Positions 16,601 to 54,041 of a stretch of DNA of 64,000 nt are shown piece after piece. The position numbers were made by a program, and so were the translations under genes. This DNA comes from a virus, in IMG/VR virus record IMGVR_UViG_3300024336_000005, positions 1-64,000 of that record; one strand, given 5' to 3'. Each line of letters begins with the position of its first letter. The first letter of the stretch is position 1. The notes below the pieces were generated by a model. That model searched no databases. It saw nothing but the letters and a program-made list of their open reading frames with translations, and was not told where the DNA came from.

Positions 16601-17468
16601 GTGCATCCCTAATGCCCTTATGAGCACCTTCAGGCAGGTTGGCTGAGAGCCTCTCTTCCATCTTTGTGACATCGCCAAAGGGCTCTAAGAATTCTCTTGT
16701 GATGCCTGTTATCTTTAAGTCGCCGCTTGCCTTGGAAACCATGAACCTAGCGGGGTTAGACTCTCCTATCTCTGCCCCACGAATCTTCGTTCCGCCCATG
16801 AACTCAGTGACAATATCTGCATCTCTGATTCTATGGTTGAATCTATCTGGTGCGCCTTCTGGAGACCACCTTCTAACCTGGACATCCACATCACTTACTA
16901 ATGGAGACGCCTCCAGTTCGCCGCTTGCTGTCTTTCCGAATAGCCCGAGCTTGCCTTGGTGCGGAGCAACCTCTAGTCCCCTTAGCATATCAGACGGCTT
17001 TAGCTTTTCTCCTGCATTCTCCATTAGAGCACGATAGTGCGGCTCTGCCCCTAGAAGATCATCAGGGGAGATGGATAGGCGGGTCGCGGGGGAAGTAAAT
17101 ACATCTCGCGATGCATAGCCAAAGACCCCAAAGGTTCTGGGGATGCCGCCCAGAGTTTCCTCTGTTCGCTTAACCCCCTCGAGGAAGAAGTCCTTAAGGC
17201 GGACAGGGGCCTTGCCGTCTGAGTCTAGCTCAAGCCCGGCAACCTTCCACCACTCATTCCCTGGAGTTGATAGCCCCTCGTGAAGATAGCTAAGCTTGGA
17301 GGGATCGATCTTTATGTGTACGTTCTGCGCTGCGAACTGTACGCCCCTGAGTCCTAAAAAGCTAAGGGCCGCGTATGCTGCGGCCTTAGCAATCTTAGAT
17401 TCAGTCTCCTGGTAGTTCTCAACTTCTACATAGGGCCTTCTATCAATCCCTCTGATTAGACTACCCAT
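13656..17468 (-). CDS. Giant tail or internal virion protein with hydrophobic segments
   Basis: A 1270-residue protein without a recognised domain. It has several Gly/Ala-rich hydrophobic stretches: near residue 33 (AAYAALSFLGL), near 365 (IGLVAGGLALGYEAGSA), near 430 (GFGLSGFLTGHMVASATAPLV) and near 500 (GAIGAVVGGLLAAPFAL). The second half is Tyr/Pro/Asp-rich with many short blocks. Membrane-like segments are common in tape-measure proteins, which can form a channel in the host membrane during ejection. It follows the tail chaperones and precedes the 1823-residue gene, with an 8-base overlap upstream and TAATG downstream. Confidence 0.6.
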   Translation of the reverse strand: MGSLIRGIDRRPYVEVENYQETESKIAKAAAYAALSFLGLRGVQFAAQNVHIKIDPSKLSYLHEGLSTPGNEWWKVAGLELDSDGKAPVRLKDFFLEGVKRTEETLGGIPRTFGVFGYASRDVFTSPATRLSISPDDLLGAEPHYRALMENAGEKLKPSDMLRGLEVAPHQGKLGLFGKTASGELEASPLVSDVDVQVRRWSPEGAPDRFNHRIRDADIVTEFMGGTKIRGAEIGESNPARFMVSKASGDLKITGITREFLEPFGDVTKMEERLSANLPEGAHKGIRDAHVFAKRMSERYMRILDAPLEFYEELIHGGPGAEGGLLKKAQSSSAYGFFKNLLGTGGDYSGSVIDLWARHAGRIGLVAGGLALGYEAGSAITNLFLDKNVAQVGAEVVGAAQRTYAATSDLTGLTALGQYQEEQAPGSSRMMAHIGFGLSGFLTGHMVASATAPLVKEAGEFGWRAAREEIHELPSALKRLEDTPLIGNMFKGAKTRGGRFGAIGAVVGGLLAAPFALGSLGSSKSYDETLAEQSGETEVAVRKGAYWEMGRTDIEGEGIDYYRPGWFARAKDDAFGDLQHDEYADRPFSRFIKGLIDPYWREKKFYYERPYPVTGPETSGFGPLGTLWGATVGRVLKNPAYMHTDELGSGGTEGADDGEVIQYGTSVSDAPEGTLGGLGPTPAASPYSASFLGGEAAYKATEAAGLPGFVFTAIKKAITGEQDFGTEDPVLESFSQMGSVGDNYWDLNIGGGFGTTEAFRRIFPNERFQLQKVNPIANEMPDWMPGAEYFNDFQHGDPYASIQEGEYRLPGSGYESRFPELEGTSLEDYPDIHKYRILADVAPYSKQFKDVSQRMDSMADSNQLSDQDEMLYRATRAETEEKSRKVPFGEHKGIIGGYWEMLKKVGRANPVEHLIPLSPVHKFAGALDPISEYESKNVYSVASPSWGDPLDDFVAPAVTNAARMFGYDGIPQAESQRRELTGYFDKLEFMKYKKLEGAARAQDDGSAAFAYARKAEYTMYGADPYGTVDSIMKSLPREEKPFFKDFIAAETSEEKGRILELVPEYTKKFYLGQWQKQIHASLAAKGDLSSDEVSMVQQIEAARALEGESSSRSTWGEYQSEVASGSVRANTFPDFIRGKRLGGYFDDESPLDAPPTDWLGYDPAIAMDDVKLRVVENLGLDHHDFNIWEDDVAMARRKPYLDVAAEELLQGKAEERDYITKSLQQMELHNLDVQIVATGGNETRIVFDIDADRSGQLASALERAGVRYGT

Positions 17469-33119: not shown

Positions 33120-34484
33120 TTAAGGTGTAGGTACGACCTGGTTACGGTCTAGGGCGCCAATGCTACCACCAACATCAATTGTGCTCTGAGCAGGCAGGAT
33201 GATCTGGTTTGCACCAACTACGACGTTCTTCGCTACTGCAATTCCCATTCCTCTGTTCTTCTCACGAAGGGTGAACCTCTCCTTCAACTTAATCTTGAGG
33301 ATATCAGTCTCGGGGTCCGTCCACTCAGAAGTCATGATCGGGTGATCCTCTACGTAGAAGCCAAGCTCGTTGGAGTCTGCCATGAGGATTGTAGTAGTGT
33401 TGTTCAGCGCATCATAAGGCACGAAGGGGCTTACGATTACGCGGAACGGAATTCCCAGATAGTTAGGCAACACAGGCGCAGAATTTAGGTTCTGGCTGAA
33501 GTCCAACGGGTTCTGGGTGATGACGTTACCATGTCCATCCTGAGGCTCTTGGGCACCAGGAGCAGCCGGAACTGCCGGAACAGGCTGATGAGCAGGGTGC
33601 GAGCGATGGATACCACCGGCAACACCTTCACCACCAAACGATGAAGCAAAGTCATTCTTCGCAGGCGATCCAGTCCACTGACTTCCGAAGAAGGCTCCCT
33701 GGTTCATCTGGGCGAAAGCGCGGAGCTGAGCGTCCTGAACGAACATTAGCCAGGTCAACGGGTGGAGCAGGAGCATGTCGGGAATGAATCCGTTGTGCAT
33801 GATCGAGGCAAACATCTCGAAGATGTCGTCCATTGTCAGGGTACCGTTCTGGGCACCTAGAAGATCACGTCCTGTAGTCGTACCGAAGTTCGAGGCAAGC
33901 GGGGTCTGGTTGTCGTGTGTGGTGTTCGCTACGCTATACCACATGTTGAAGATCTTCTCTTCCTTGTTACGAGCCATTGCTCGGCCGGCCTGACGGACTG
34001 CCATTGTAACAACATCGAAAGTGGAGTAACGAAGTACTTCCTCGGTGAACTTTACAGCCACACCCTGCTTTCCGATCTTGCCAATCTCAGAACCCGGTCC
34101 GTACGCAACACGTAGCTCAGGAAGGGACTCTTCCTCGCCGACGTCGAAGTCGCCGTCAACGGCACCCATTACTGGGAGGTCAACCATTGTTCCAGGCTGA
34201 TACGGGATTTTTTGTAGAAGAGAGGTCGCAATCAACAGAGGCTCAACTGCTTCCTGTACGGCGTTGTTTACGACCTTGGGGATGAATAGCGGGGATTCCC
34301 ACATTGCGAGCGCATCGCTAATTCTTCCTTCTTTGCCGAGCAACCTGCCGTCGGGGCGGACACCGCTGTTCTTCCAGGCGTACTCAAAGTCTCTAAACTT
34401 CTCTCCTGGCGCAGCAGAGGCATCAACCTCGCGGAAATCAGCGAACTTGAGCTGGCGTCTATTCTTTGAACGAATATCACTCAT
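33120..34484 (-). CDS. Major capsid protein, HK97 fold
   Basis: A 454-residue protein with the features of HK97-type capsid proteins: an N-arm, then LFIPKVVNNAVQEAVEPLLI, an E-loop/P-domain region (DLPVMGAVDGDFDVGEEESL followed by KQGVAVKFTEEVLRYSTFDV), a spine helix (VVTMAVRQAGRAMARNKEEK), and a C-terminal A-domain with the FRVIVSPFVPYDALNNTTTI stretch. A Pro/His-rich insert (residues about 290-335) may be a surface loop. It follows the protease-scaffold gene and a 391-residue gene, as expected of a head operon. It forms the capsid shell. Confidence 0.85.
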   Translation of the reverse strand: MSDIRSKNRRQLKFADFREVDASAAPGEKFRDFEYAWKNSGVRPDGRLLGKEGRISDALAMWESPLFIPKVVNNAVQEAVEPLLIATSLLQKIPYQPGTMVDLPVMGAVDGDFDVGEEESLPELRVAYGPGSEIGKIGKQGVAVKFTEEVLRYSTFDVVTMAVRQAGRAMARNKEEKIFNMWYSVANTTHDNQTPLASNFGTTTGRDLLGAQNGTLTMDDIFEMFASIMHNGFIPDMLLLHPLTWLMFVQDAQLRAFAQMNQGAFFGSQWTGSPAKNDFASSFGGEGVAGGIHRSHPAHQPVPAVPAAPGAQEPQDGHGNVITQNPLDFSQNLNSAPVLPNYLGIPFRVIVSPFVPYDALNNTTTILMADSNELGFYVEDHPIMTSEWTDPETDILKIKLKERFTLREKNRGMGIAVAKNVVVGANQIILPAQSTIDVGGSIGALDRNQVVPTP

Positions 34485-35690: not shown

Positions 35691-36563
35691 TTATGGGTTG
35701 ATGTGGGCCGGCAGATAACCTCTGCGCTTCTGCTCTACCAAGAACATGTCTGCCGCACGCTGGCCACCAGGGCCAATGGATTTTTCGTAGTAACGGTCAA
35801 GGATAGCAGCATACGCTGAGGTATCCACTTCTTCTCTTTCAGGTGCTGCGCTATCTTGCTCGGCCCCTAGACCATCAAGCTTCTCGCCATCAGGCTTTCT
35901 AGCCATCCCATTCTCAGGCTCACTTTCAAGATCTGAAAGTGAATCTCTTAGAGACTGGATGCTTCTTGTTGAGAGCTCGGTTAGCTTCTCTGTTCTATCA
36001 GTAACTCTAAGCCCCTTCTTGATCTGCGCATCTACAAGAGTTTCTGCCAACATCTGCTTCTGATCTTTCATCAGCTCGATGTTTGCTGCTTCTAGCTGTG
36101 AGATCTCATCCTTTAGGGATGTGACTCTTAGCTTAAGCATGTCTCTTGTTGCTGTCAGGTCATCAGTCTTAGCAGCCTTTTCTTTGAGGGCAGTTAGCTC
36201 CTCTTCTGAAATTTCTACCTTGTCTGAGACCTTCTCTTCCTCCGCAGCCGCTTCGGGCTCGGGAACTGCAGCGCTATCCGCTTCGGGCTCTTCTGGAGTA
36301 GGAGCTAGCTTGACTAGCTTCTCATCAAGGATCTCAAGTAGAGTGGCCTTGGCGTCAGAATCTTCAACTGTCTCAAGCAGTCCCTTAATGGCTTCGCAGT
36401 GAGCGATGTCCTTAGCAGGGAAAGTCTTGTTAGGACCGATGAAAACACTATCTTCCAAACCAGTCAGCAAGTCACCTGTAAGGCGCGCTGCGTCTGACGG
36501 GAGGAACTTGAGAATCTCCTGGTAGTTGGACTCTGTGTCCTTAGTTAGATCGGCGAAATTCAT
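35691..36563 (-). CDS. Internal-start scaffold protein (in frame within the protease gene)
   Basis: An in-frame ATG at residue 360 of the protease-scaffold (base 36563) is preceded by AAGGAAATACC, a good ribosome site with correct spacing. It would yield a 290-residue scaffold (start MNFADLTKDTESNYQEIL) independent of the protease, as in lambda, where Nu3 is made from inside gene C. The start lies exactly at the end of the Pro/Glu/Ser linker. The sequence shows the site; use in vivo is inferred. Confidence 0.65.
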   Translation of the reverse strand: MNFADLTKDTESNYQEILKFLPSDAARLTGDLLTGLEDSVFIGPNKTFPAKDIAHCEAIKGLLETVEDSDAKATLLEILDEKLVKLAPTPEEPEADSAAVPEPEAAAEEEKVSDKVEISEEELTALKEKAAKTDDLTATRDMLKLRVTSLKDEISQLEAANIELMKDQKQMLAETLVDAQIKKGLRVTDRTEKLTELSTRSIQSLRDSLSDLESEPENGMARKPDGEKLDGLGAEQDSAAPEREEVDTSAYAAILDRYYEKSIGPGGQRAADMFLVEQKRRGYLPAHINP

Positions 36564-37640
36564 GGTATTTCCTTGCGAGGAGACTTCCTCACGTTGTTCA
36601 TTTCTTCCAATTACTGCATCGGCCTTTTCCTCTGCGGGATTTTCGGGCGGTACAGAGGGGCTAGACTGTTGATTTTTTGAATCTTCTTGAAGAGCGTCTT
36701 GCTCTTTGCCTTCGCCCTTAGCATTAAGTGAAGTAGGAATCTCTACTTCTGTGGCATCGCTGATTCTATAACCCTTACTTGTTCCATCTTCAGACTTCTT
36801 TACCAGCACATGGCCTGAGAAGATTTGATGTGTCATAAGAGTCTGCAGACCTGAGGATGCATCTGCGAATGATAGGTTCTCTCCGAACTCTAAAATCTGT
36901 GCATGTGGGGCTGCGGGGTTGTTTACTGGAGATACTTCTTCATAGTCGAATCCGAAAGGAACTGCAACGCATTCCTTTCCGTCATAGAAGCGACCTCTAT
37001 CGTGACCGCAGTCCTCGTTACGCCAGTCTACTAGCTCTCCATCTAAAGCGCAAGTGGAACAGTGTGCACCCTTTGGCATAAATGAAGTTGATACTGTTAG
37101 GTATCTTCCATCTAGTACCTTCTGAATTGCATCAGGGTCTGTGATGTTCCACAGTCCCTGGATGTGTCCTACTCCTCTGTAGCCATCTGTGCTGGATAGC
37201 TCCTGAAACAGGGGGACTGATTTGAGGCGGTTTTTCTTTGTGGTCTTTGCGTCCCTGAAGGGCGACATGGCGCTTTGCACTCGAGAGTCAACAAGGATCG
37301 CTTGGTTGGTTGTATCGATATAGCGAACGTCGATTACTCTTCCTATTGGATCCTTGCCCTCATCGTGGTGCTTGAGGACGGGCTTGTTGAATGGGCTGAC
37401 GAAGGATCGCGCCCCTCTAAACATCTCATCTGGCAGATAGATTGCCTTGTTCTTTGTGGTTAGCCCTGAGAAGGTCATTCGGACCTTCGCTCGGAGAGAG
37501 TGTCCTGTCAGTGATACTGAGTCTTTCGTCTCGAGCATCAGTCTCTTTCCGGGCTCTACAGCAATTGGTTCCGCGACCATGTGTGCATAGTCGCTTCTTG
37601 CAATTGGCTTTACCCAGTCTGCAAAACTATTATCGGCCAT
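35691..37640 (-). CDS. Prohead protease fused to scaffold
   Basis: A 649-residue fusion. Residues 1-240 are a prohead protease: KPVLKHHDEGKDPIGRVIDV (likely catalytic His 91 or 92) and YLTVSTSF (likely Ser 184 or 186) match the His...Ser pattern of the family. A Cys cluster (C194, C197, C211, C224, with H213) may bind zinc. After a Pro/Glu/Ser linker (residues 300-358), residues 360-649 are acidic and coiled-coil rich, as in scaffolds. The protease frees the head of scaffold during maturation. The gene overlaps the portal gene by 11 bases. See the internal start below. Confidence 0.8.
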   Translation of the reverse strand: MADNSFADWVKPIARSDYAHMVAEPIAVEPGKRLMLETKDSVSLTGHSLRAKVRMTFSGLTTKNKAIYLPDEMFRGARSFVSPFNKPVLKHHDEGKDPIGRVIDVRYIDTTNQAILVDSRVQSAMSPFRDAKTTKKNRLKSVPLFQELSSTDGYRGVGHIQGLWNITDPDAIQKVLDGRYLTVSTSFMPKGAHCSTCALDGELVDWRNEDCGHDRGRFYDGKECVAVPFGFDYEEVSPVNNPAAPHAQILEFGENLSFADASSGLQTLMTHQIFSGHVLVKKSEDGTSKGYRISDATEVEIPTSLNAKGEGKEQDALQEDSKNQQSSPSVPPENPAEEKADAVIGRNEQREEVSSQGNTMNFADLTKDTESNYQEILKFLPSDAARLTGDLLTGLEDSVFIGPNKTFPAKDIAHCEAIKGLLETVEDSDAKATLLEILDEKLVKLAPTPEEPEADSAAVPEPEAAAEEEKVSDKVEISEEELTALKEKAAKTDDLTATRDMLKLRVTSLKDEISQLEAANIELMKDQKQMLAETLVDAQIKKGLRVTDRTEKLTELSTRSIQSLRDSLSDLESEPENGMARKPDGEKLDGLGAEQDSAAPEREEVDTSAYAAILDRYYEKSIGPGGQRAADMFLVEQKRRGYLPAHINP

Positions 37641-39702
37641 TCTGAATTTCTCCTATGGGCTCTAGCTCACATCTGCAATTTGGATGGAACGGAGGAAGGT
37701 CTTCTTGTGTAACACTGTCTAATTCAATAACAATGTTGTTCCATACGTCGAAGTCTTCTCCACCTGGAGTAGCCTTAATTACAGCTGTATCGAACCCACT
37801 GGCCTTCATTGCAGCAACCTTTGATAAGATTCTTGCTCTGTGTGTTAGAGTTCTCTCTATAAAGCGGATCCTATACTCTAGTCTGTCGATAGTCAAGTTA
37901 TCTCTTCTGCCAACTGCCAGCTCTGCTGCAGTTCTTCCCGCAGTAGCTCTGAAGAGTCTTGTGACGTCTGTCTCAAACTGTCCATGAATTCTATCTGAAA
38001 TATTACGGACTCTCTGCAACAGGGCACTGCTTGCGGAAAACCCTTGCAGGCCTGAGATGGATGCTCTGTCAATCGTTGTCTTGAAGCGCCTCTTTATCTG
38101 TCCTTCTGCAGCCATGAAGATTTGGCGGATGAAACCTAGGTTTATCTCCCCGCTTCTAACCTCCTTGAGGTCTCTCGCAAGAGAGCCATATATCTCTGCG
38201 GCCACACCGTCCTGAACTGAGCTCCTGGCCTTTGTAGGGCCGGTAGATGTGCCGTGCTGGTTAGAGGGTTGCTGCTTAGCTGTAGCGGCCCTGTTGGCCG
38301 CCTGAGCCCTACTGGTGGCCTCTGTCTTCTCCACCTCCAGTTCCCCTTGCTTCTCCATCTTAGGAATCTCAACTACACACAAGGCACAGTCCTCTGATTC
38401 CTCTTCAGTCATAGCTTCCCAGCCGGATAGACTTCTAGCTTCTGTCCTTGAGATTAGGTTGGATGTGAAGAGCAGCATGTAGTGGTTCTGCAGTTTGATC
38501 TGTGCTTCGTGATCAATCTCTGTAAAGCGGAGTTCTACATTGTTCTCTTCTGACAATGGGTCAAAGCCGAAGGTGCTCTCAAGTAAGAGCTCCCTTAGGA
38601 TTTCAAAGTTGAATGAGTCTGCAAGACACTGCTGGTAGAACTTAACGTTACCGTGAGCCAGCTTAGACATTGAGTCTGCTGTTGCTCGGTTGGCCGTGTC
38701 TCCGTCGCCGAAGTCGAGCTGAGACATTCCTGAACCTGTGATGACCCTCTTCTTGAAGTGCTCAATGAAAGGCTCTGGTCTGATAGAACGACTCTCCGCG
38801 CCAAGTCCAGAAATCTCATGTCTCTCTGGGGTTACAAGCATTCCATCGGAAGGCATGTCTCTTACCATTGCCCTGACGATATCTACCTCTGTTACGCCGT
38901 CCTCATACCTTTGCATCGGTGCGCTTTCTGTTCCAACCTTATATTGAAACAGGGGGTATATGTGCTGGTAGACAAGGTTCTCTACATGCTCCTCTATCCT
39001 TCGTAGAGCTGTAACATCTTCTATAACTGGGTGCCACGGTGGGGTTGCAGTTAGGAAGTGAGGCTTCTTGTTCACAGAGATGAAGATTACATCTTCAGGT
39101 CTATAAATCTTAAACCTTCCATCTGGCATGATGTGCTTGTAGGAAATGATTCTGTTGTTTGTGCCGGGCTTAACTCTCATAGTGTCTGGTGACACTACAA
39201 AGTATCCGGCGACGGGCTTCAACTTCCTCGTCCCAGCAGTCCTAACCTTACCCCCTGATTTATCCACACTCCTTGCTTTGATTATATAGCAGTTGTGGTA
39301 TCTAAGTAGAGTTCCCATGATCTCGATTAAGAAGGACCTTAGTGTCTGGTCCTGTGCAACTTCAATCTGGCGGAAGCGTTCCTTGATGTACTTAATTGTT
39401 TCCTTGTTCTTTCCGACGAGGGTATGCCCTTCCTTCATGGCAAGAGCAAGCTTCTTTAGGTTCGCTTGGAAAATGTATGAGTCAGTATCCTCTGCCGCCC
39501 CGATGTCAATCAAAGGGTACTCAGACTCATGGTATCCATGGTCGTCTGCCCTAGCATTTGGAACGGGAGCGATGTATGTCATCGACTCCCTCTTAATTGT
39601 TCCAGGGATTCTCTTAATCAATCCTATTGAAGGAGGATTGGCGTCCTGCTCAGACTCCGGCATCTCTTCCGCAGAAAAGATTTTAATGTTTGTCTCTGTC
39701 AT
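37630..39702 (-). CDS. Portal protein with MuF-like C-terminal domain
   Basis: A 690-residue protein. Residues about 60-430 fit a portal: IRYKHIMPDGRF-like RFKIYRPEDVIFISVNKKPH, PWHPVIEDVTALRRIEEHVE, and VITGSGMSQLDFGDGDTANR followed by ADSMSKLAHGNVKFYQQCLADSF in the stem-crown order. A Gln/Ala/Thr linker (about 455-490) leads to a helical domain ending in LPPFHPNCRCELEPIGE, the signature of MuF/minor head proteins. The portal is the DNA entry ring; MuF proteins are packaged in small copy number. Usually these are separate genes, so this is a fusion. Confidence 0.8.
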   Translation of the reverse strand: MTETNIKIFSAEEMPESEQDANPPSIGLIKRIPGTIKRESMTYIAPVPNARADDHGYHESEYPLIDIGAAEDTDSYIFQANLKKLALAMKEGHTLVGKNKETIKYIKERFRQIEVAQDQTLRSFLIEIMGTLLRYHNCYIIKARSVDKSGGKVRTAGTRKLKPVAGYFVVSPDTMRVKPGTNNRIISYKHIMPDGRFKIYRPEDVIFISVNKKPHFLTATPPWHPVIEDVTALRRIEEHVENLVYQHIYPLFQYKVGTESAPMQRYEDGVTEVDIVRAMVRDMPSDGMLVTPERHEISGLGAESRSIRPEPFIEHFKKRVITGSGMSQLDFGDGDTANRATADSMSKLAHGNVKFYQQCLADSFNFEILRELLLESTFGFDPLSEENNVELRFTEIDHEAQIKLQNHYMLLFTSNLISRTEARSLSGWEAMTEEESEDCALCVVEIPKMEKQGELEVEKTEATSRAQAANRAATAKQQPSNQHGTSTGPTKARSSVQDGVAAEIYGSLARDLKEVRSGEINLGFIRQIFMAAEGQIKRRFKTTIDRASISGLQGFSASSALLQRVRNISDRIHGQFETDVTRLFRATAGRTAAELAVGRRDNLTIDRLEYRIRFIERTLTHRARILSKVAAMKASGFDTAVIKATPGGEDFDVWNNIVIELDSVTQEDLPPFHPNCRCELEPIGEIQNGR

Positions 39703-41978: not shown

Positions 41979-42448
41979 TAGACATTGCTCTCAGTGTGCG
42001 TCACCTGCAAGGAGAACTGCGACGTACCTATTGGGGCGGCCTTAGACATTGATACATAGATCCAGAAGGGGTAGTAAATCCTATCAGGGGATCCTACTGC
42101 TCCTAGCTCTGGTACGGTTGAGGTGTCCCCGTTGATCAGGGGAGATGCGAGCGTGGCTAGGGCGTTGCTTGGTGCGGCAGCCCACTCTGCATCGGTCGGC
42201 TTATTGTCTCCAGACAGGAGCTTGATGGAGACTGTCCCATCGACAATGTCCGCGCCAGCGGTAGAGGTTGGCTTAATCTCAATGGCATCATACCACTTTG
42301 CCGCATCGTCATTCCTGAGGAATAGCTTCTTTACGAAGCCCGTTCCTCCTGGACGAATCCCAACTGCTATCGGATCTCCAAAGGTTGTAGCCGTAACCTC
42401 TGTAAATAGGAGAGTAGACTCATCAAGCCTATAGATCTTTACTGCCAT
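41978..42448 (-). CDS. Beta-sandwich-like protein next to terminase
   Basis: A 156-residue beta-rich protein (VKKLFLRNDDAAKWYDAIEI, VSIKLLSGDNKPTDAEW, IYYPFWIYVSMSKAAPIGTS) resembling a jelly-roll or Ig-like fold. It overlaps the terminase stop by one base. It could be a connector or a surface protein; the sequence shows no active site. Confidence 0.5.
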   Translation of the reverse strand: MAVKIYRLDESTLLFTEVTATTFGDPIAVGIRPGGTGFVKKLFLRNDDAAKWYDAIEIKPTSTAGADIVDGTVSIKLLSGDNKPTDAEWAAAPSNALATLASPLINGDTSTVPELGAVGSPDRIYYPFWIYVSMSKAAPIGTSQFSLQVTHTESNV

Positions 42449-44412
42449 TATCTTCTGCCTCTAAGTAAGTTTGATCTTCTAATCGGACCACGGCCTCCGG
42501 GCTTTGATCCATTTCTTCTCGCTATCTGTCCTCTTACGTGATCCACTGCTTCCTTTGTTGGCATGGCTCCACCGGAGGTTCGAATGTGAGAAGGAGGTAT
42601 GTAACCCTTATCTGCTTCGGCCATCTCTTCTTTCTTATTGCTCATCGCTAGCTTATGGATAGCTCTAGATCTAGGCCTACTTGATTCAGGTACAGAGCTG
42701 ATTGTATCGCTTCCTGGGTGTCCTGTAAATCTAACAATAGGAATAATCTCAGGATTCCCCATCTTTGTGAACTTCATAGCAAATGCAAAGAGGGCAAGAA
42801 TGAACGCATCAAGGGCGTGGTCCGGCAAATCGTCTGAGACCATCTTGTAGGATGGTCTTCCGTTCATTCCAATCTTGTCGATTACATAACCTCTAAGCTG
42901 CCTCTCCAGGTCTGCGTCATACTTACTTAGCTGTATGTTCATCTCTTCGAAGGCTCTGATTGCATTCTCTACAATGGCAGGCTTTGCATAGACCTTATGC
43001 GTCTGCCCTGTGGTTGGGTGGCGGATTTCAATCTTGCTGCCAAAGTCAATTGCCTCGACAATTGACTCTAGTCTCTTGTCTGCTGTATTGGGAGCTGCTG
43101 CTCTGCCGAACTCATTTAGATATTCGATCTGCATTGAGCCTGCGCCGCGATCAACATAAATTGCGACAGGGTTCCACTTCCTGTTTAGCCTTATGAGCTC
43201 TTGGATAGCCTGATACTGCGTGTTGCCTTCTCTGAAGACCTGCCCCTTATCGACAACCTTCCACTGCTTAAAGTCTGCAGAGGGGTCTACTCCTATCACA
43301 TAGCACTCTGTACCGTTGACTGGGTTCCAGTCAACTCCCATTGCATAGATCCACCCTGGAGTGAATACCTGATCACTGTAGAAGTAGTCTCCGTCATCAA
43401 TGGCCACATCAATATGGCCATGCTGGAATACGCCCTCATTAAGCTCGCCGTACTCAGCAAGAATCTCATGAATGTACTTAACGCCTAAGTTCTCTCTCTT
43501 CTGTTCTATCTCCATGTCCTCATCCCAATTGGGACGACACATAGAAGGATAGTGGAAGGATCTAAACTTGGGGTTTAGGTCCCACTTCCAGAACTGCTCT
43601 CTCGCTCCTGAGGGAGTAGAGGACACGCACATTACTGTGTCCTTGTGCTCTGAGAGGATTGCTACGATAGCAGAGAGGTCGCTTGTGGTTAGGTAGTCGC
43701 CCTCGTCGATAACAATCATATCTGCCGACTGGCCACGAATTGTTTCATTTCCCGATACGAAGCCTCTCATGAAGGATCCGTTGGCTAGCTTAAGAAACCT
43801 TTGGGGTGTCTTAACAAAGCGGTTACCAGGGGAGTCTAATGTGGAGGAGGTCTTGATGAACTCCATAGCGATGCTAAAGATGATGTCCAGCTGTGCGATG
43901 TTAGGAGTGATGACAAGGATTCTATATCCTTCCTCTGTGAACATCCGGTGGAGCATCTTCATTACAAGAGTCCAGGTCTTTCCACTTCGCCGGCCAATCC
44001 TATAGATCTGTCTACGGGCAGTGCATTTAACCATCATCTCCTGATAGTAGATAGACGACGGATCTAGGTCATACCTTTCAACATTCTCACCCGAGGCTCC
44101 CTGAGGGAGCCAAGGGCCTCTTATCTTTGTCTCCATATCAGGGACAGTAATATTGTCCTCAGCCCAGAGCACTGGATCCTTAGTCCTGGCGTAGGTCTCC
44201 ATTCCCCGCTGGCCAAGGGCCTGCTGAATAATAGGGTCTGTAATCTGAACGACATGAGTCATAGGATCTGCTGGGATGCCGTCGCACTTAATCGCGAACT
44301 CACCCTTAGCAACTATGGTCTTGCCGCTCTCCTCATCAATTATATCAGAGGTAGCCTTATTTCTTTGGATGCACATTACACATCCGGGATGGAGATCTTT
44401 AGCTTCTATCAT
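42448..44412 (-). CDS. Terminase large subunit
   Basis: A 654-residue DNA-packaging motor. It has Walker A GRRSGKT at residues 140-146, Walker B MIVIDEGD at 232-239, and the coupling motif SSTPSG at about 264-269. The nuclease domain shows GVDWNP (Asp 361), a second Asp in YVDRG (about 421) and DHALDAF (about 531-537), the RNase H-like acidic triad. The first 100 residues are an extra domain containing C11-x2-C14. It translocates DNA into the prohead and cuts concatemers. A small subunit was not recognised upstream. The start lies nine bases from the next gene. Confidence 0.93.
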   Translation of the reverse strand: MIEAKDLHPGCVMCIQRNKATSDIIDEESGKTIVAKGEFAIKCDGIPADPMTHVVQITDPIIQQALGQRGMETYARTKDPVLWAEDNITVPDMETKIRGPWLPQGASGENVERYDLDPSSIYYQEMMVKCTARRQIYRIGRRSGKTWTLVMKMLHRMFTEEGYRILVITPNIAQLDIIFSIAMEFIKTSSTLDSPGNRFVKTPQRFLKLANGSFMRGFVSGNETIRGQSADMIVIDEGDYLTTSDLSAIVAILSEHKDTVMCVSSTPSGAREQFWKWDLNPKFRSFHYPSMCRPNWDEDMEIEQKRENLGVKYIHEILAEYGELNEGVFQHGHIDVAIDDGDYFYSDQVFTPGWIYAMGVDWNPVNGTECYVIGVDPSADFKQWKVVDKGQVFREGNTQYQAIQELIRLNRKWNPVAIYVDRGAGSMQIEYLNEFGRAAAPNTADKRLESIVEAIDFGSKIEIRHPTTGQTHKVYAKPAIVENAIRAFEEMNIQLSKYDADLERQLRGYVIDKIGMNGRPSYKMVSDDLPDHALDAFILALFAFAMKFTKMGNPEIIPIVRFTGHPGSDTISSVPESSRPRSRAIHKLAMSNKKEEMAEADKGYIPPSHIRTSGGAMPTKEAVDHVRGQIARRNGSKPGGRGPIRRSNLLRGRR

Positions 44413-45091: not shown

Positions 45092-45556
45092 CTAGCTCCT
45101 TGAGTTCAATGCAACCATACGATCGAATATAAAGTAGAACTTAGATTCATGTCGTGTGACCCTATCTTGATGACAGGACTTGCATAATGTTATACCATTT
45201 TTTACATCCAAAGTCTTCTCTGGAAATAAATACTTCGGCCTAATGTGATGCACCTCTAGTTTCCCACCAAGGCGTCCACACATTTGACACTGGAAGCAAT
45301 CTCTTTTCAGAATATACTCCCTCCAATCTGCATACCAAGGTGTACCATACAAGGCTTTCGCCTCATCATAGTTTCTTGGAATCTTTCGTAGAGTCGCTGA
45401 AGCTGTCGAAGTCCTTGAGGTCCTTCTCTTCCTGCGAGGCTTCCTTGGAGAAGATTTAACAATCTTCGTACTCCTAGCCTTTCTTTTCTCTCGCTCTCTC
45501 TTCTTCCTCTCGAGCTCCTTTAGCTTCTTCTCTACTGCGTTACTCATACTTAACAT
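45092..45556 (-). CDS. HNH endonuclease
   Basis: A 154-residue protein with a very basic N-terminus (Lys/Arg-rich, residues 10-50) and an HNH nuclease domain: C90-x2-C93, VHHIRPKYLF with H103-H104, and C125-x2-C128-H129 with an Asn at 120. HNH enzymes next to large terminase are known to help cutting at packaging ends in some phages; the location just upstream of terminase suggests this rather than a homing enzyme. Starts at ATG 45556 or ATG 45547 are both possible; both overlap the upstream gene. Confidence 0.8.
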   Translation of the reverse strand: MLSMSNAVEKKLKELERKKREREKRKARSTKIVKSSPRKPRRKRRTSRTSTASATLRKIPRNYDEAKALYGTPWYADWREYILKRDCFQCQMCGRLGGKLEVHHIRPKYLFPEKTLDVKNGITLCKSCHQDRVTRHESKFYFIFDRMVALNSRS

Positions 45557-46127: not shown

Positions 46128-46551
46128 TGCAAACGTCCCTCCCTTTGCAGAACCTCACGACCTTTCTCATAACACCTGGCAGTTGTGTAATGGTATAGCT
46201 GCTGTAGTTCTCCATAAAGCTGTTACGTATCTCATTAATCCCGATAACATATGCACCAGAATTCTTTAAATCTAAAATTAGACAGTGTGTCTCACTGTAC
46301 TCTTCTTCAAATCCTACGGCGATGACAAGATCTGTCTGATCTATTAGCAGTTCCCTCTCTTTCTTGGAGAGTGAGGCTATGTCTGCGCTACTTATTGACC
46401 TAATCTTTGAAGAATATGACAATCCTTTAGCCAATCCCAACGCTCTTGCGTGGTCATATGCCTCAGAGTTGGAAATTATTACAATACTTACTGCATGTTT
46501 GATACGACTATAGATTATCTTGGAGATCTGTTCGTCGTTTATTGATTTCAT
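46087..46551 (-). CDS. SIS- or Rossmann-like small protein
   Basis: A 154-residue alpha/beta protein. The alternation VSIVIISNSEAYDHARALG, then DQTDLVIAVGFEEEYSETH, then LILDLKNSGAYVIGIN looks like a SIS-type or Rossmann sheet in which SNSE could play the role of the sugar-phosphate-binding Ser-rich loop. SIS proteins bind phosphosugars. The call is by eye and weak. Two Cys residues are near the C-terminus (CKGRDVC). Codon use is more AT-rich than its neighbours. Confidence 0.35.
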   Translation of the reverse strand: MKSINDEQISKIIYSRIKHAVSIVIISNSEAYDHARALGLAKGLSYSSKIRSISSADIASLSKKERELLIDQTDLVIAVGFEEEYSETHCLILDLKNSGAYVIGINEIRNSFMENYSSYTITQLPGVMRKVVRFCKGRDVCNEEDYHMVVGDQA

Positions 46552-47429
46552 GCGTGGTAAGCCAATGCCTCCTGGCCAAAGGCAGATCTTGCATTCATTT
46601 GGCTCCTTCTAATGGACTGCATCGCCCTCTGCCTCATTGTGGCAGCATAATCAGAGTCAATGAACTGACTCTTTCTGTTTACGGACCTGCGTCCATGTCT
46701 ATTCCCGAACTCTGAGATCTTCCATACCCCTTCAGCGGCCATCATGCCAACTTCAGCTCCTATAAGGCCACCAGCCACAAGGCCGATGCCTCCTACAAGC
46801 ATCCCACCCTTAGGAACCATCTTAATGGCGGCTGCGGCTCCAAGCCCAGCGCCAGTAATCGCTCCAGCCTCGGCACCAAGGTTGCTTGCAAGCTGCCTGG
46901 GCATCCCGTTTATGGGATCAAAGATATTATCATCAGTCATCATGGCCGACAGACCTGCCGTGGCGCCAAGGCTGACCATGCTTTTCATCTGCCAAAGGTT
47001 ATGTCCGACTCTGCCTAGGTGCTCTCCTGCTGATCTGGCTCCGAATCGCCTAACAGCTTGACCTGTCTTGGGGTTAATCTGCTTCCCGTACTGCTTAACA
47101 AACTCTTCTGGCTCGTAGCCCATTGCTCTTGCATAGTTTTGAGCTCCCATCCTATTGGGACCCATCTCTGCCATGGTGTCAGCAGTAGCCCTGAAGGCAT
47201 TCATTTGGGACTGCTCGAACCTTCTGTGAGCTCGATAGCCCCCCACTCCGCTCCGTAGCCCTCCGCTTATTCCTGCAACGCCATGATAGCCAGCCTTGGC
47301 AATCGTGCTGGCACCAAGGAAGGCAGCAGTCCCTCCGAAGGCGGCACCGCGATAAACCGCATTCCCCATCTTCCCAACAATATTTCTTTGGGCCTCACTA
47401 TGTGCTTTAAGCTTATCCCACCAATTCAT
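46548..47429 (-). CDS. Gly/Ala-rich hydrophobic virion protein (ejection candidate)
   Basis: A 293-residue protein with several hydrophobic Gly/Ala segments: residues about 27-60 (GAAFGGTAAFLGASTIAKAG), about 150-165 and about 185-235 (GAITGAGLGAAAAIKMVPKG and GMLVGGIGLVAGGLIGAEVG). Basic and Gln/Asn-rich stretches lie between. This resembles phage internal proteins that insert into the membrane during DNA ejection. No catalytic motif is seen. It is coupled to its neighbours by a 1-base and a 4-base overlap. Confidence 0.5.
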   Translation of the reverse strand: MNWWDKLKAHSEAQRNIVGKMGNAVYRGAAFGGTAAFLGASTIAKAGYHGVAGISGGLRSGVGGYRAHRRFEQSQMNAFRATADTMAEMGPNRMGAQNYARAMGYEPEEFVKQYGKQINPKTGQAVRRFGARSAGEHLGRVGHNLWQMKSMVSLGATAGLSAMMTDDNIFDPINGMPRQLASNLGAEAGAITGAGLGAAAAIKMVPKGGMLVGGIGLVAGGLIGAEVGMMAAEGVWKISEFGNRHGRRSVNRKSQFIDSDYAATMRQRAMQSIRRSQMNARSAFGQEALAYHA

Positions 47430-48031
47430 TAGTCATTCCAACCAAAGCCAAATGGGTTTACAAAGTCAGCTGCGGCCATGCCTCCATAGACCATGGCGCC
47501 TCTAGCGCCTACGGCTCCAGCACGAGCCCAACCTCCTGGGCCGTTTGCCTTAGCTCCTAGCTCCGCTGCTGAGCCCCAATTCCAGGCACTTCTTGCCATC
47601 ATCTTAGCCTCACCCCAGGCTTGTCCAGCCGCTCGACCTCCAGGACCGACTTCTTTCTGTCCGGATATCGCGAGGAGTGAGCTGGAGGGACCATGGGCAG
47701 ACATAATATTCTCACGTGCCTTCCCGAACCTTCCTGGAGCAGCCTTAACCTGCCCAAGCCCAAACAAACTGCTCATGCCACCCTCGCCTTGAAATGGCTC
47801 TTTCATGGCCGTGAATCTGGTTGAGGCGGCGGTCCTTGTGGCGCCGGCTGCCCTTCTGGCGCGATCCCTTGCTTCTGCCGCCTTCCTCTTAACGGTTGGC
47901 CCGTGCGCCGCGCGTGCTTTCCTGGCCCTATTAAGCCCAGATCTACCACCTCTTCTGAGGCGCCGACCCTCGCGTACGGTCACCTCAGCGACATTGCCTA
48001 CTAGATTCCCTGCCTTATTTGCTAGTCCCAT
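47429..48031 (-). CDS. Arg/Ala-rich basic protein
   Basis: A 200-residue protein. The first 80 residues are extremely basic (REGRRLRRGGRSGLNRARKA); the second half is Gly/Ala/Trp-rich and hydrophobic (ARAGAVGARGAMVYGGMAAAD). Possibly DNA-binding and packaged with the genome. It is coupled to the next gene by one base and starts two bases after the 1278-residue gene, hence is probably co-packaged with it. Unrecognised. Confidence 0.5.
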   Translation of the reverse strand: MGLANKAGNLVGNVAEVTVREGRRLRRGGRSGLNRARKARAAHGPTVKRKAAEARDRARRAAGATRTAASTRFTAMKEPFQGEGGMSSLFGLGQVKAAPGRFGKARENIMSAHGPSSSLLAISGQKEVGPGGRAAGQAWGEAKMMARSAWNWGSAAELGAKANGPGGWARAGAVGARGAMVYGGMAAADFVNPFGFGWND

Positions 48032-48032: not shown

Positions 48033-51000
48033 TTAATTCCCTATATGGTGTTGAGTCCAATTTTCTGAATTCATCATCCTCTTACTCCAGCCGCGTGCAA
48101 TCCTATTGCCTTCCATAAGGCCTCGCCTTGTGCGCGTGCTGCGCTTCACTGTATTAATAACCCCGTCTATTCGGTATCCAGACCCAAAGTCTCCAATGTT
48201 TGCTTGCCTGTTGGCTTGGGCCCATCCGTGTCTGAGTCCCTCCTGAATTGTGGAATCATCACGTCCTCCCGCAGCCTGCATTGCAGAAAGCTCAGTATCT
48301 GGATTCCGAATTCTGTGGACAATGCTCGAGGCCCTAAAATTTCCAAATAGTCTTTCCAGATCTGTAAACGCATTGTGCGTAATCTTTCTTTTCGCTCCCT
48401 TCTGGATATTGTGAGCCGCGCGCCAACCAGCATCTGACCACATTCCAGTCTCAGATTCGACTGCTTCCTCCTGAGCTCTGTTAAAAGCACGCGCATCGAA
48501 TATTCTGTCTGAAGCCTTTCCAAAAGGTAGACTCGCCGCTGCCCCTTGGCGGACGAGCTGCAAGTTGAGGTTAACATTGTCATCGCCAAACAAAAGAGCG
48601 GGAGTACGACCATATGTAGATCCTGCGTTGGGATCGAAGACGGCAGTCATCGAGCTCTGTGAGGCCATTAGCTCTTCGAGCATCTCCGTTGCTCTCTCAC
48701 CATATGGCTGATCTTGGAATACTTTATTAGATGCATACGCATCACCATGGGAGACCTCGGGAGCATCAATGCCGGCTAGACGTAAGGACATAGTATTCCC
48801 ACCGCTAAGCATAAGCTTTACGGTGTCTGCATCTTCTATCTCATAGTCTGTGACCTTCTGCTGCCCTATCTGACCTTCATACCTCCTGTTCAAAGCATGG
48901 TCTAGCCCCTGCCAAGGGGAACCGAAGTCGGTCTTTTTGCTTCTGGTGGCGTCGGCAACACCCCCTCCGTGAGCCATGCCCTCCTCTGGATTTAGAGCGC
49001 GGTTGGAGCGGACCTGTCTCTCATAGAGAGTGCTAACAACCTGCTTGTCGCGCTTCAGTGCAGCCTCTTCTGATATCGCTCTGATCTGACGGCCGCCGCC
49101 CTCCTTCCTTACGATCTCACCATGACGCTTTCCTTTGCCTGTCCATTGTCCCAATGGACTCCCGTAGTCAATAATGCCAATGCGCTTGGCGCCTCTCTGG
49201 TCCGCAGTTAAGACAATGTTGCCAAAGTTGAGATCTCCATGACGCATCTGCTCGTGTAGTGTTGATACAGCTTCGTTTATGCGACCCAAGCCAACCTCTC
49301 TTAGCTCAGAAGGGGACAGGTCCTTCAAGGGAGACCCTTCAAAGTATTCCATGTCCATCTGTCCCTGGCGACCAGGACGGGCGGCATAAACATCTGGCCC
49401 AACTGAGGAGCTAGCCTTGCTTGTCAAGGCAACCTCTGATTTAGGAATTCTCCCGGCCTTACGAACAAAATTGAATGACTGGCCTCTGAAATAGCCCTCC
49501 ATGAGGTGAGCTTCGCCACTTGCTCCGGCACCAAGCCTCTTTACGCGAGTAGCAAGGGCGATGGCATCTTGGAAGCCAGGAGATCCTGTCATCTCAGCAA
49601 AGGTCTCTGCAGCTCTAGTCAATCCCCTGAGGGCATTCCAGCCAGAACCAAAGTCAGCAGTCTTCTTTCTTGCTGGCCCCTTAAAGCCTTCGTGCCTAAG
49701 TCCTTCGATGACGTTATAGGCATCATCCTTCCCAGAAATCTTTCCTGGCTCTATCTGCATCCCGGGATAATAGCCCTGAAACTTAGACATGCGCTGGTGA
49801 GCACGACCGGCGTCGGACATGTCAAGATATCTAACTTTTCCTGCAACAATATCATCTGCAGCAGCCTGTGTGTGCAATAGCCTCCCAGAGGATGCTTCTA
49901 TGACCGCTTGGTTGGCAGTCATGTCTGTCCCCTTGAAGAATGAGGGAAGGTCCTTTTGTATTTGCACATCAAAGAAGCTTTGATGCTTGGCCATTGCCCC
50001 ATATACCTTATCTAAGCCGATGTCTCCTGTAACAAGAAGGTCAATGTCCTTAGACTGTCTTGTCCATTCGGGACGAAGACTTGACACCAGATGCTCTCTG
50101 GCCACCCCTCCCTTAACATATAGATTGCCCCCCATTCCTGCAATCTCATCTGCCAATGCACCAACGCCAGCAATAGCAGCAGGGTTGTTCGGGTCTGATA
50201 GGCCCGCAGCCTCTGCGTTTGAGAATGCTGCAGATATGCCACCTTCTTCCTTTACAATCTTTGTTGGTCGTCCAATGTGCGACGGGTTATAATCCTCCGT
50301 CGAAACTCCTTTCAGAACTCTTACTTCAACTTCTCCCCTTAACCGGCGCGTTCCGCGCCGCAAGCCCTCAACCTTCTTTTGATGGAAAAAGTCTCTTAGA
50401 ACTCCGGTCGCGGAAAAGCCCTCCAACTCTCTCCTTTCTATGAAATCAGTTCGACTCAGGGTCACGGCGTCAGTCTTTGGATCGTAACTTCTGACAGCGT
50501 GCGGCTTGTCTGCGTGTCCGATTCTCGGCATCCGAAAATCTCTCGGCTTCATATCAGTCCGCAGAATCTTTTTTTCTGTGCTTTCGAATCGGATGCTTTG
50601 GTTACGAGTGTAGAGGTGTGCGCCCTCAGACATATCTAATTTAGAGAGCTCTTTTTCAGGTATAAAGAAGAAGGTGCTATCAGATACAGAGCTGTTTCCA
50701 GTAGCGGAACTTTTCGCGTACGCAGACAGAAGCTCCTCACGGCTCCCCTTTTGCATTCGGCTTCCGTAAACGCCAACACTCCCTGCTTCATTCAAAGCAT
50801 TGGAGCCTCCTGGAAGGAGTCGCTGCGTCTCGAGAATTGAATCGTGGGCGTAATTTGGAGCACCATGAGAGAACCCCGCTCCTAAATCTAAAGTGCTTTT
50901 TGGCGTCCATGTTTTTTCAGGCCCTGCGGCTCGTATATTAATCTTTTCTGCGGCTGCTTCGTATCGTTCAATTTCCGGTCTTGACTTCTTAAAGGCCGCC

Positions 51001-51869
51001 AGATTCTTTCTATAATTCCGCCCCCCTTTGCCCAAGAGCCCCTTTGCCGCCTTTAGCCCAAGACCTATCCCGGCTCCGCCGAGTGCAGCTGTAAGGGACG
51101 GGGTTATACTGCTATAGGCCGCCATTCCGCCGACCGCCGCGCCCCATCCAGCTCCTCCGCTGCCAATATATGAGAAAGCCCTGTCAAGATCTAGGAGGGG
51201 GATCTCTCTCCTTAGTTCTCCATATCCATATTTTTTGGTTCTTGACCAAAGGTCCTTAGCCTTGGTTAAGGCCCCCCTCCAACCAGAACCAAAGTCAGTA
51301 TTGTGCTTACGGGTTTGCCCAGCAAAACCCGCATGCTTCATTCCCTCTATATAGTTATATTCATCATCAGAACCAGAAAAGAGTAGCCCAACGCCAGCAA
51401 TAGCAGCTGCTCCTCCAGCTAGAAGTCTCCAGTTGCTTTTGATCCCACGCATGGCACGTGCGCTAGTGCCCTCTGGAGCCTCCTTAGCGGCTGTTGCAAC
51501 CGAGGCGGTAGGGTTGGATGGATTAGGGGCAGAAGCCCCCACAGAGGGGGCTGTAGGGGCAGCAAGGGCCATATCATCGGGGTGCCATGGCAGACTTGTC
51601 TCAGCGGTTGGAACATGAGGAACATGAGCCCATCCTCCTGGAGCTCTAGGGGCGTATACCTTGTGCTCTGGGGTGCCCCAAGCAGGAGCAGTTCCAGTGG
51701 TCTTATATATACTGTCTAGAACATCCCAAGCGGCCTGACCTCTTGCACCCTTTAGCTCGTCTGCAGAGAGTCCCCCCATGAGCTTAGAGACTCGCTTCGC
51801 ATGAGCGCCCAGATCATTAGAGGCATCCCAATTGGTTTTACCTGCTGCGAAGTCGTCTATGGCTGACAA
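48033..51869 (-). CDS. Multi-enzyme modular protein: NTase-like, kinase-like, thermonuclease
   Basis: A 1278-residue protein built of modules separated by a recurring motif, DDxYNxIEG[LM]xHxG...DFGSGW, at residues 168-197, 715-744, 961-986 (shorter) and 1204-1232. Between copies 1 and 2 lie a Gly/Ala hydrophobic region (235-280), an unknown part, and a nucleotidyltransferase-like domain (GG 587-588, AR 590-591, DID 608-610, as in CCA-adding enzymes). Between 2 and 3 is a protein/aminoglycoside-kinase-like domain: Gly loop G780-x-G782-x2-G785, K804, HGDLNFGN 877-884, DYG 901-903. Between 3 and 4 is a staphylococcal-nuclease domain: D1014, R1030, D1035, E1058, R1088. Among other probable virion genes it may be packaged and released into the host. 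Role inferred; domains well supported by catalytic residues. Confidence 0.75.
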   Translation of the reverse strand: MSAIDDFAAGKTNWDASNDLGAHAKRVSKLMGGLSADELKGARGQAAWDVLDSIYKTTGTAPAWGTPEHKVYAPRAPGGWAHVPHVPTAETSLPWHPDDMALAAPTAPSVGASAPNPSNPTASVATAAKEAPEGTSARAMRGIKSNWRLLAGGAAAIAGVGLLFSGSDDEYNYIEGMKHAGFAGQTRKHNTDFGSGWRGALTKAKDLWSRTKKYGYGELRREIPLLDLDRAFSYIGSGGAGWGAAVGGMAAYSSITPSLTAALGGAGIGLGLKAAKGLLGKGGRNYRKNLAAFKKSRPEIERYEAAAEKINIRAAGPEKTWTPKSTLDLGAGFSHGAPNYAHDSILETQRLLPGGSNALNEAGSVGVYGSRMQKGSREELLSAYAKSSATGNSSVSDSTFFFIPEKELSKLDMSEGAHLYTRNQSIRFESTEKKILRTDMKPRDFRMPRIGHADKPHAVRSYDPKTDAVTLSRTDFIERRELEGFSATGVLRDFFHQKKVEGLRRGTRRLRGEVEVRVLKGVSTEDYNPSHIGRPTKIVKEEGGISAAFSNAEAAGLSDPNNPAAIAGVGALADEIAGMGGNLYVKGGVAREHLVSSLRPEWTRQSKDIDLLVTGDIGLDKVYGAMAKHQSFFDVQIQKDLPSFFKGTDMTANQAVIEASSGRLLHTQAAADDIVAGKVRYLDMSDAGRAHQRMSKFQGYYPGMQIEPGKISGKDDAYNVIEGLRHEGFKGPARKKTADFGSGWNALRGLTRAAETFAEMTGSPGFQDAIALATRVKRLGAGASGEAHLMEGYFRGQSFNFVRKAGRIPKSEVALTSKASSSVGPDVYAARPGRQGQMDMEYFEGSPLKDLSPSELREVGLGRINEAVSTLHEQMRHGDLNFGNIVLTADQRGAKRIGIIDYGSPLGQWTGKGKRHGEIVRKEGGGRQIRAISEEAALKRDKQVVSTLYERQVRSNRALNPEEGMAHGGGVADATRSKKTDFGSPWQGLDHALNRRYEGQIGQQKVTDYEIEDADTVKLMLSGGNTMSLRLAGIDAPEVSHGDAYASNKVFQDQPYGERATEMLEELMASQSSMTAVFDPNAGSTYGRTPALLFGDDNVNLNLQLVRQGAAASLPFGKASDRIFDARAFNRAQEEAVESETGMWSDAGWRAAHNIQKGAKRKITHNAFTDLERLFGNFRASSIVHRIRNPDTELSAMQAAGGRDDSTIQEGLRHGWAQANRQANIGDFGSGYRIDGVINTVKRSTRTRRGLMEGNRIARGWSKRMMNSENWTQHHIGN

Positions 51870-51872: not shown

Positions 51873-52733
51873 CTACTCCTTTTCCTCAGTAATCTGTGCC
51901 TGTAGTTGCTTAACTCTCTTCATTAGTTCAGACATGTGCACAGAAGCGTCCTTAACATTCTCACCCTCTCGAGCGGTCATGACTCTTTGTTCTCTTCTGG
52001 TCCCTACTAGTTCCTTACGAAGACGATCCTTCCGCGCCCACAACTTCTCCTTAATCTTCATAAGGTCAGCTACATCCTTTACATAGTTGTCTACAATGTC
52101 TCCCGCCTTAGTAGTTGTAGTACTAACAAGCTTCTCTTCTGTAAGTCCTTGCAGTTCAGGCTCCGACGCAAGCTTTGCGTTGACCCTGCTCTCTAATAGT
52201 TCTATCTCTGCAAGTTCTAGTATGAACCTTTGGTCTGTATACTCTTCCTCTCTTCCGGTCACATCAAACTCTATGGAAAGCTTTTGTACTGCATCATGTA
52301 GGATGTCTGTCTCTATTGGGCATGCCCTTCCTATTGGAACAACCCGACGACTCTCCCCTGATCTATCTATCTCCTCTTGGAGGCTTACATAAGGACAGGT
52401 GCGGGCACGGGGACAAACCTCTGGGCCCCAGCAGGTCATGATCTGCTGTATAGAAGCACCAGTCTTCATACGCTGGTGAGCGGTCCTTAGGCCGCGAGCT
52501 TCTTCAGCTGTGAGTTGAATATCAGTATAGGCGCCAGAGGCAAGCTTCATCCCGTCGAACCAGTTGTGCCTTACAACATCCCCGCCTTCAGTTATCGCTG
52601 TCCCATTAAATGAGACAAGTGCCATCTTATCTCCTTTGGGAACCTTCTCTAGTATAGGGAGCTTCTTAGGAGAAGGCTTCTCTTGGTCTACTATAGGAAG
52701 ACCATCTTCGTATTCTGGGATCCATTCATCCAT
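51873..52733 (-). CDS. Cys-cluster protein of unknown function
   Basis: A 286-residue protein. The first 75 residues are beta/Pro-rich, the middle has a Cys group MTCWGPEVCPRARTCPYVSL with a fourth Cys in GRACPIETD (spacing C-x5-C-x5-C-x21-C by eye), which may bind zinc or an iron-sulphur cluster, and the C-terminal 120 residues are a charged coiled coil. It lies early in the late unit, near the usual place of a small terminase, but it does not look like a known one. It starts at a one-base overlap with the 88-residue gene. Confidence 0.5.
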   Translation of the reverse strand: MDEWIPEYEDGLPIVDQEKPSPKKLPILEKVPKGDKMALVSFNGTAITEGGDVVRHNWFDGMKLASGAYTDIQLTAEEARGLRTAHQRMKTGASIQQIMTCWGPEVCPRARTCPYVSLQEEIDRSGESRRVVPIGRACPIETDILHDAVQKLSIEFDVTGREEEYTDQRFILELAEIELLESRVNAKLASEPELQGLTEEKLVSTTTTKAGDIVDNYVKDVADLMKIKEKLWARKDRLRKELVGTRREQRVMTAREGENVKDASVHMSELMKRVKQLQAQITEEKE

Positions 52734-53061: not shown

Positions 53062-53482
53062 CTGTGCGGAGGGATCCTTGCTTTAATTCTTCTAGTTGCG
53101 CGGGTGAGAGATTCATCTCAATGATAGAAGAAGTCTTCTTGTCACCAGACTCTGGCGGGTCTGGTGCTATCCACTTAAAGGCCATGGAGACAAGTGCGGC
53201 GGCGATGAGAGAAGCGACAATAGATATGACCGCCCACTTCCCACTAAAGGTCGCGCCGGTGGTCTCTAGCTCCCTCAACCTCTTCTCTTGATCTACGTCC
53301 TTCGATTCCAATACGTTGACCTTTACTTTTAGTTTGGTCAACTCCTCGGGATGATAGCCTATCATCCTGCCCTTAAGTTCTTGTACGTCCCCGCTTATCT
53401 TTTCATAGTTATCATTTAATCTTTCTAGTTCTTTTAGCACATGGCGGGACCACTCATTCCACCCATTTTGATCATTGCTCAT
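53051..53482 (-). CDS. Coiled-coil membrane protein
   Basis: A 143-residue protein with a predicted coiled coil (residues 12-75: LKELERLNDNYEKISGDVQE and a Lys/Glu-rich run), one membrane helix (about 82-106: WAVISIVASLIAAALVSMAF) and a 36-residue C-terminal tail. The coil-plus-one-helix plan resembles XhlA-type membrane proteins of lysis regions, but the extra tail is not usual. It overlaps the PAS gene by four bases (ATGA), so the two are made together. A membrane sensor partner or lysis factor is possible. Confidence 0.55.
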   Translation of the reverse strand: MSNDQNGWNEWSRHVLKELERLNDNYEKISGDVQELKGRMIGYHPEELTKLKVKVNVLESKDVDQEKRLRELETTGATFSGKWAVISIVASLIAAALVSMAFKWIAPDPPESGDKKTSSIIEMNLSPAQLEELKQGSLRTVAS

Positions 53483-53934: not shown

Positions 53935-54041
53935 GATTACATCCAATAGGCGGGAGTACGGTTCAATAACAATAGAAAGCCCTTCCGGTGCGGGACGAGA
54001 ATGGGTTCTAAAAAAATATGGGAAAGGGAGGGAAATATAGG

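Follow-up and report, generated by a model that had tools for sequence, protein, structure and literature searches.

A multi-enzyme phage protein with a repeated border motif in the packaging region of a myophage, and its possible delivery into the host

The gene and its enzyme modules

We analysed the initial 64 kb (positions 1 to 64,000, hereafter the window) of the 204,008-bp myophage record IMGVR_UViG_3300024336_000005, and studied one gene on its minus strand. The open reading frame (ORF) starts with TTG, begins 3 bp past the upstream gene, and combines three unrelated activities, namely a nucleotidyltransferase (NTase), a protein kinase, and a thermonuclease (SNase), with four copies of a peptide motif (M1 to M4). 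A probably unstructured N-terminus is followed by a hydrophobic Gly/Ala segment, M1, 346 residues without known function, the NTase, M2, the kinase, M3, the SNase, M4, and a basic tail (Table 1). Labels such as L060 and L085 denote other loci fetched for comparison; L003-L009 are the rest of the phage's own genome.

The SNase module was matched by Pfam family PF00565 (E = 3e-14; 53.7 bits against a cut-off of 21), and its catalytic-type residues listed in Table 1 were invariant in 11 relatives. The kinase gave a weak sequence match (NCBIfam Bud32, 8e-6), and a profile of the family collected 30 related stretches. Among 21 aligned modules the Lys, Glu, HxD, Asn, and DxG positions (Table 1) were conserved, all of them invariant except N884, which was nearly so. 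The core of the AlphaFold2 (AF2) model was confident and the top 50 Foldseek matches in the PDB were all protein kinases (best E = 7e-8). These fold matches span about 150 columns, so the module is a minimal kinase in which the C-lobe is small or missing, as in OspG-like kinases. Indeed, a relative in L072 matches Pfam OspG_kinase at 7e-7, whereas the kinase of the window does not match that model and, unlike OspG, stands in a phage context.

The NTase had no Pfam or PDB match by sequence; PolyA_pol (PF01743) gave no match at E <= 10 in the phage's own record, while controls gave matches. The only relative found, in L085, was 46% identical. For an AF2 model built from this two-sequence alignment (pTM, the predicted TM-score, 0.72), the 28 best Foldseek matches were CCA-adding or tRNA-processing nucleotidyltransferases (E down to 4.8e-5, TM-scores 0.46-0.58). 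The module has the class II CCA head fold with GG..R and DxD, and TDxTANQAV replaces RDxTINAL. Unlike the class II enzymes, however, it stops at M2 after about 180 residues and the Foldseek alignment spans about half of the CCA enzymes, so that it holds the head and the start of the neck and has no space for the tRNA-binding body and tail. Taken together, the Pfam match and the AF2 and Foldseek results bear out the three folds with catalytic residues that the original prediction had proposed for this protein. For its proposal that the NTase modifies host tRNA, the CCA-type fold is the sole support, in a module that lacks room for the tRNA-binding parts.

In the phage's own genome, 32 tRNA genes were predicted at positions 84001-144000 of the record (L004-L006), one of them with a four-base anticodon call, and about 12 of the 32 apparently had no encoded 3' CCA. 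It is possible that the tRNA genes without CCA provide a substrate pool for the NTase module. The module occurred in only 2 of about 45 proteins with the motif, which limits the proposed link to tRNA.

Table 1 Features of the window. Residue numbers refer to the 1278-aa protein; bit scores are from a hidden Markov model independent of it.
Feature	Position	Strand	Remarks
Multi-enzyme protein with four motif copies, 1278 aa	48033..51869	-	whole gene
Hydrophobic Gly/Ala segment, about residues 149-168	51366..51425	-	immediately N-side of motif copy 1; hydropathy scan
Motif copy 1, residues 162-203	51261..51386	-	...DDEYNYIEGMKHAGFAGQTRKHNTDFGSGW, DFGSGW; 63.5 bits
Residues 204-549, no assigned function	50223..51260	-	second hydrophobic Gly/Ala-rich stretch; no profile relative found
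NTase head, CCA-adding-enzyme type, residues 550-706	49752..50222	-	GG 587-588, R591, D608, D610, TDMTANQAV
Motif copy 2, residues 706-751	49617..49754	-	DFGSGW; 56.5 bits
Minimal protein kinase, residues 755-903	49161..49607	-	K804, E812, D879, N884, D901
Motif copy 3, residues 948-993	48891..49028	-	DFGSPW; 37.3 bits
SNase (thermonuclease) module, residues 1010-1179	48333..48842	-	D1015, R1030, D1035, E1038, R1088
Motif copy 4, residues 1193-1239	48153..48293	-	DFGSGY; 28.9 bits
UP, 286 aa, Cys cluster	51873..52733	-	homologues ME3_9 (ME3), CDS0247 (MTATph1)
SM, 200 aa, basic, Ala/Gly-rich	47429..48031	-	among fetched loci, only here and in the sister contig
HYD, 293 aa, hydrophobic, Gly-rich	46548..47429	-	next downstream of the motif gene in the majority of relatives
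HNH endonuclease	45092..45556	-	just upstream of terminase; kept in several relatives
Terminase large subunit (TerL)	42448..44412	-	anchor for the conserved slot
Portal protein	37630..39702	-	
Probable prohead protease/scaffold	35691..37640	-	lies between the portal and major head genes; MTATph1 and ME3 have homologues
Major head protein	33120..34484		
Tail sheath	21253..24216		
Tape-measure-position protein, motif-free here	13656..17468	-	homologues in other phages bear the motif

The repeated motif and its distribution

The repeats were scored with a hidden Markov model (HMM) built from the copies of other phages only, this protein and its nearest relatives being excluded. All four scored far above the maximum of 4.0 bits obtained with 1000 shuffles of the protein; accordingly, a chance origin was rejected and the four repeats of the original prediction were confirmed. 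The consensus comprises 38 residues, S-G-K-D-D-x-Y-N-T-I-E-G-L-x-H-x-G-x-A-x(3)-R-x(3)-T-D-F-G-S-G-W/Y/F. Over 102 copies from non-redundant proteins, FGS was conserved in 99-100%, the first Gly in 95%, the Arg in 93%, and the Glu of IEG in 75%. The codons for the invariant residues varied synonymously between copies, and this free variation indicates that the peptide, not the DNA, is under selection. AF2 placed most motif residues below a pLDDT (model confidence) of 50, and the idea that the motif belongs to the kinase fold was therefore rejected. The motif is an element at cassette borders that is kept at the protein level and is predicted to be mostly unstructured. No further copy above noise was detected in the phage's own genome, of which all but the final 8 bases were covered.

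Relatives were collected with a DNA pattern for TDFGSGW and a profile scan. These searches extended the motif beyond this protein to about 45 distinct proteins of uncultivated phages, with 1-6 copies each and essentially a single motif-bearing ORF per fetched locus. The outcomes named beforehand as refuting the original prediction, unsupported folds or a motif restricted to this protein, were not observed. A tblastn search of 50,697 cultured-phage records with the consensus gave no match at E <= 10, plasmids gave just two matches at chance level, and a profile scan of contigs using a single peptide pattern gave no relative in the genomes of 84,980 species. With the whole protein as the query, the sole match among cultured phages, genomes, and viral contigs was a near-identical sister contig. 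The motif string was not found in the literature text searched, nor was any report of a staphylococcal nuclease joined with a kinase in jumbo-phage virions.

The terminase is remotely related (about 30%) to those of Moorella phage MTATph1, Acinetobacter phage ME3, and Bacillus phage KLEB27-3. The annotation of ME3 cites homology to Bacillus phage 0305phi8-36 throughout the corresponding region, and the published map of 0305phi8-36 (PMC2147016) agrees with the window in gene order. On these grounds, we place the phage in the 0305phi8-36 lineage, and the motif proteins belong to large uncultivated myophages of that lineage. The probable prohead protease/scaffold gene, which had no Pfam match, also lies where that map would place it.

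At six loci the motif-bearing ORF was instead a homologue of the tape-measure-position protein of the window; wherever the genes for tail sheath and tube were visible, it lay downstream of them. ME3_35, the counterpart in ME3, carries an annotation of homology to YP_001429636. Counted from YP_001429602 (p112) of the same record, this is gp146, the protein assigned as tape measure in 0305phi8-36 (PMC2147016). One 204.6-kb genome carried the motif both in the protein preceding the terminase and in the tape-measure homologue, and the phage's own tape-measure-position protein had none. In L081, a 2411-aa tape-measure homologue (7706-14938) contained two strong motif copies and an intein-like insert with a LAGLIDADG domain.

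A conserved slot with exchangeable cassettes

The order UP, motif gene, HYD, (HNH), TerL, and portal was kept in nearly all loci that reached the terminase, and in most relatives UP immediately precedes the motif gene. This agrees with the location among probable virion genes that had been proposed, the neighbours being head and packaging genes. Two cultured relatives keep UP, and MTATph1 also HYD, but other genes occupy the slot and there is no motif protein.

The content of the slot was variable. The motif proteins contained SNase, one or two kinases, a DEDD exonuclease, NTase, and undescribed modules in differing orders, as well as a weak GNAT-like module, a DnaJ-like stretch, and, in one tape-measure homologue, an intein. 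Borders were examined by counting motifs within 55 aa of a module, with 2000 random placements as the null. A motif lay at most 55 aa upstream of 19 of the 25 kinases (3.9 expected, random maximum 10) and at most 55 aa downstream of 9 of the 11 SNases (1.3 expected, random maximum 6). The motif had previously been described as lying before or between the enzymes; the position at module borders held, and the description was incomplete in that copies also follow enzymes.

Comparison with the nearest relative, L060, whose TerL is 50-58% identical, showed that the two proteins align in blocks only. The NTase cassette of the window occupies the place of a kinase cassette in L060, and the breakpoints fall at the end of M1 and about 10 aa ahead of M2. 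Both breakpoints of this NTase/kinase swap are at motifs, and the swap directly records an exchange of cassettes. Together with the varied module sets and orders, it supports the expectation of exchangeable modules: between UP and HYD/TerL lies a cassette locus, in which modules are gained, lost, and reordered among related phages.

A module of about 130 aa recurred in the motif proteins of L021, L028, L043, L048, and L052. It conserves GTGHKRI.IPK, AIPE.GQ, and H.H...W..H.D.H, had no Pfam match in those five proteins, and has the look of a metal-binding or enzymatic domain not yet described. A stand-alone PAS-domain protein (53479-53946, minus strand; PAS_3, E = 3.5e-11) is encoded a few genes upstream of the window's motif gene; such a protein is unusual in a phage late region. 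Within 54161-64000, long ORFs overlap on opposite strands, for example 54161-55132 (minus) and 54275-55081 (plus), with an apparent switch of coding to the plus strand; none of the six plus-strand ORFs scanned there had a Pfam match.

Possible role in the virion

The closest known systems are the polyvalent proteins (Iyer et al. 2017, PMC5512222), which are phage polypeptides with several unrelated enzyme domains each and variable architectures. Their genes lie among late virion genes, and their domains include minimal kinases without a C-lobe, Pol-beta NTases, and GNATs (PMC5512222). The protein studied here is likewise a multi-enzyme ORF near late or virion genes whose architecture varies between relatives, and kinase, NTase, and GNAT-like types are common to both. 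In contrast, none of their signature domains, such as ArdC-N, zincin MPTase, LPD, and PBECR, was matched here by Pfam, the NTase is of the CCA-enzyme type rather than their NTox45-like minimal type, the main text of PMC5512222 does not mention SNase, and a repeated border motif common with a tape measure is not described there. By architecture and context, the motif proteins may be filed as a branch of the polyvalent proteins, to which the SNase module and the motif shared with the tape-measure protein would be new. The resemblance to polymorphic toxins that had first been noted holds for the architecture of exchangeable enzyme cassettes only: Rhs and polymorphic toxins have an N-terminal trafficking region and a single variable C-terminal toxin, whereas here several internal enzymes share a chain in a phage packaging locus, and no Rhs Pfam family matched the motif proteins scanned. 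Internal proteins of T4 and ejection proteins of phiKZ and SPN3US each carry one N-terminal propeptide that is removed by the prohead protease (PMC5694885). They share with the present protein the context of head genes and, as proposed below, a peptide element taking enzymes into the particle; unlike the T4 capsid-targeting sequence, the element here is internal, has 1-6 copies, and is also present in a tape-measure-position protein.

The recurring tag and its occurrence in the tape-measure-position protein suggest an exchangeable set of proteins that the particle takes up and that enter the host together with the DNA. We consider it somewhat more probable than the opposite that the 1278-aa protein is a polyvalent-type effector that is loaded in the virion and injected, its enzyme cassettes being punctuated by a docking or ejection element. 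The long single polypeptide would enter the virion and travel into the host with the DNA, where the kinase may act on host proteins, the NTase on RNA or tRNA ends or other acceptors, and the SNase on nucleic acid; we infer these targets, like the packaging, the injection, and the role of the motif. The motif would bind a partner common to proteins that pass the portal and tail, and the punctuation of the modules would be a consequence of this docking. Because the tape-measure-position protein bears the same motif, binding of a shared partner is the motif's most likely job. The more specific proposal, that DDxYNTIEGL...TDFGSGW is a delivery signal and the repeated docking peptide ties cassettes and tape measure to a common portal, tail, or membrane partner, is put forward tentatively.

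Several points weigh against injection of a packaged effector. The two cultured relatives do without the motif protein, which is thus dispensable; its presence in the virion is deduced from gene position and hydrophobic segments; the identity of the tape measure is likewise suggested by position and by homology to ME3_35 and gp146; and, as described above, the signature polyvalent domains were not matched. An SNase packed beside the phage's own DNA would also need control. In favour of the effector, CDS0032 of MTATph1 (L087, 37880-40000), annotated as an endolysin, contains an SNase domain (PF00565, E = 1.6e-7), showing that SNase in a tail- or hub-type protein occurs in a cultured relative. 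The protein might instead have no place in the virion, as an enzyme expressed late and retained by the producing cell or as a factor of head assembly that uses its enzyme-like domains for that purpose. The gene's position, which in nearly all relatives is directly before HYD/TerL, would suit this. Such a protein is very improbable in our estimation, since its hypervariable content is more in keeping with an arms race than with a conserved function in assembly, Gly-rich hydrophobic segments and the motif in the tape-measure-position protein point to the virion, and the cultured relatives manage without it.

The motif itself might be a proteolytic processing site, at which a phage or host protease cuts the chain and releases the enzymes singly, within the virion or in the cell. 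Its place exactly at module borders and its predicted lack of structure fit such a site, as do the probable prohead protease gene between portal and major head protein and the cleavage of many head proteins of related giant phages after Glu-ending motifs (PMC5694885), which IEG fits loosely. However, about 35 conserved residues in two blocks go beyond what a protease site usually needs, the Glu is kept less strictly than FGS, and the motif is borne by the tape-measure-position protein, for which a place in the prohead is not expected. The last two points weaken the prohead-protease site of the original prediction, and processing as a whole is unlikely; cleavage by some other, non-prohead protease may occur. 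A structural linker or recombination handle for cassette swaps, with no binding partner, would explain why cassette breakpoints coincide with motifs and module orders vary, but it is quite improbable, as the codons of the invariant residues vary freely and both single-copy proteins and tape-measure homologues retain the motif with no need for cassette exchange.

If the favoured multi-enzyme effector is indeed injected, the motif proteins would be a ready catalogue of effectors delivered at the first moment of infection and sorted in cassettes by the tag. As the tag makes module borders readable from the sequence, one could mine uncultivated phages for effectors and assay these one at a time. 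Should the tag prove to direct loading or ejection, it would amount to a peptide signal by which selected proteins can be sent through phage tails. Furthermore, if it is a delivery signal, the lineage would carry a plug-in effector-injection system with a logic comparable to that of secretion-system signals.

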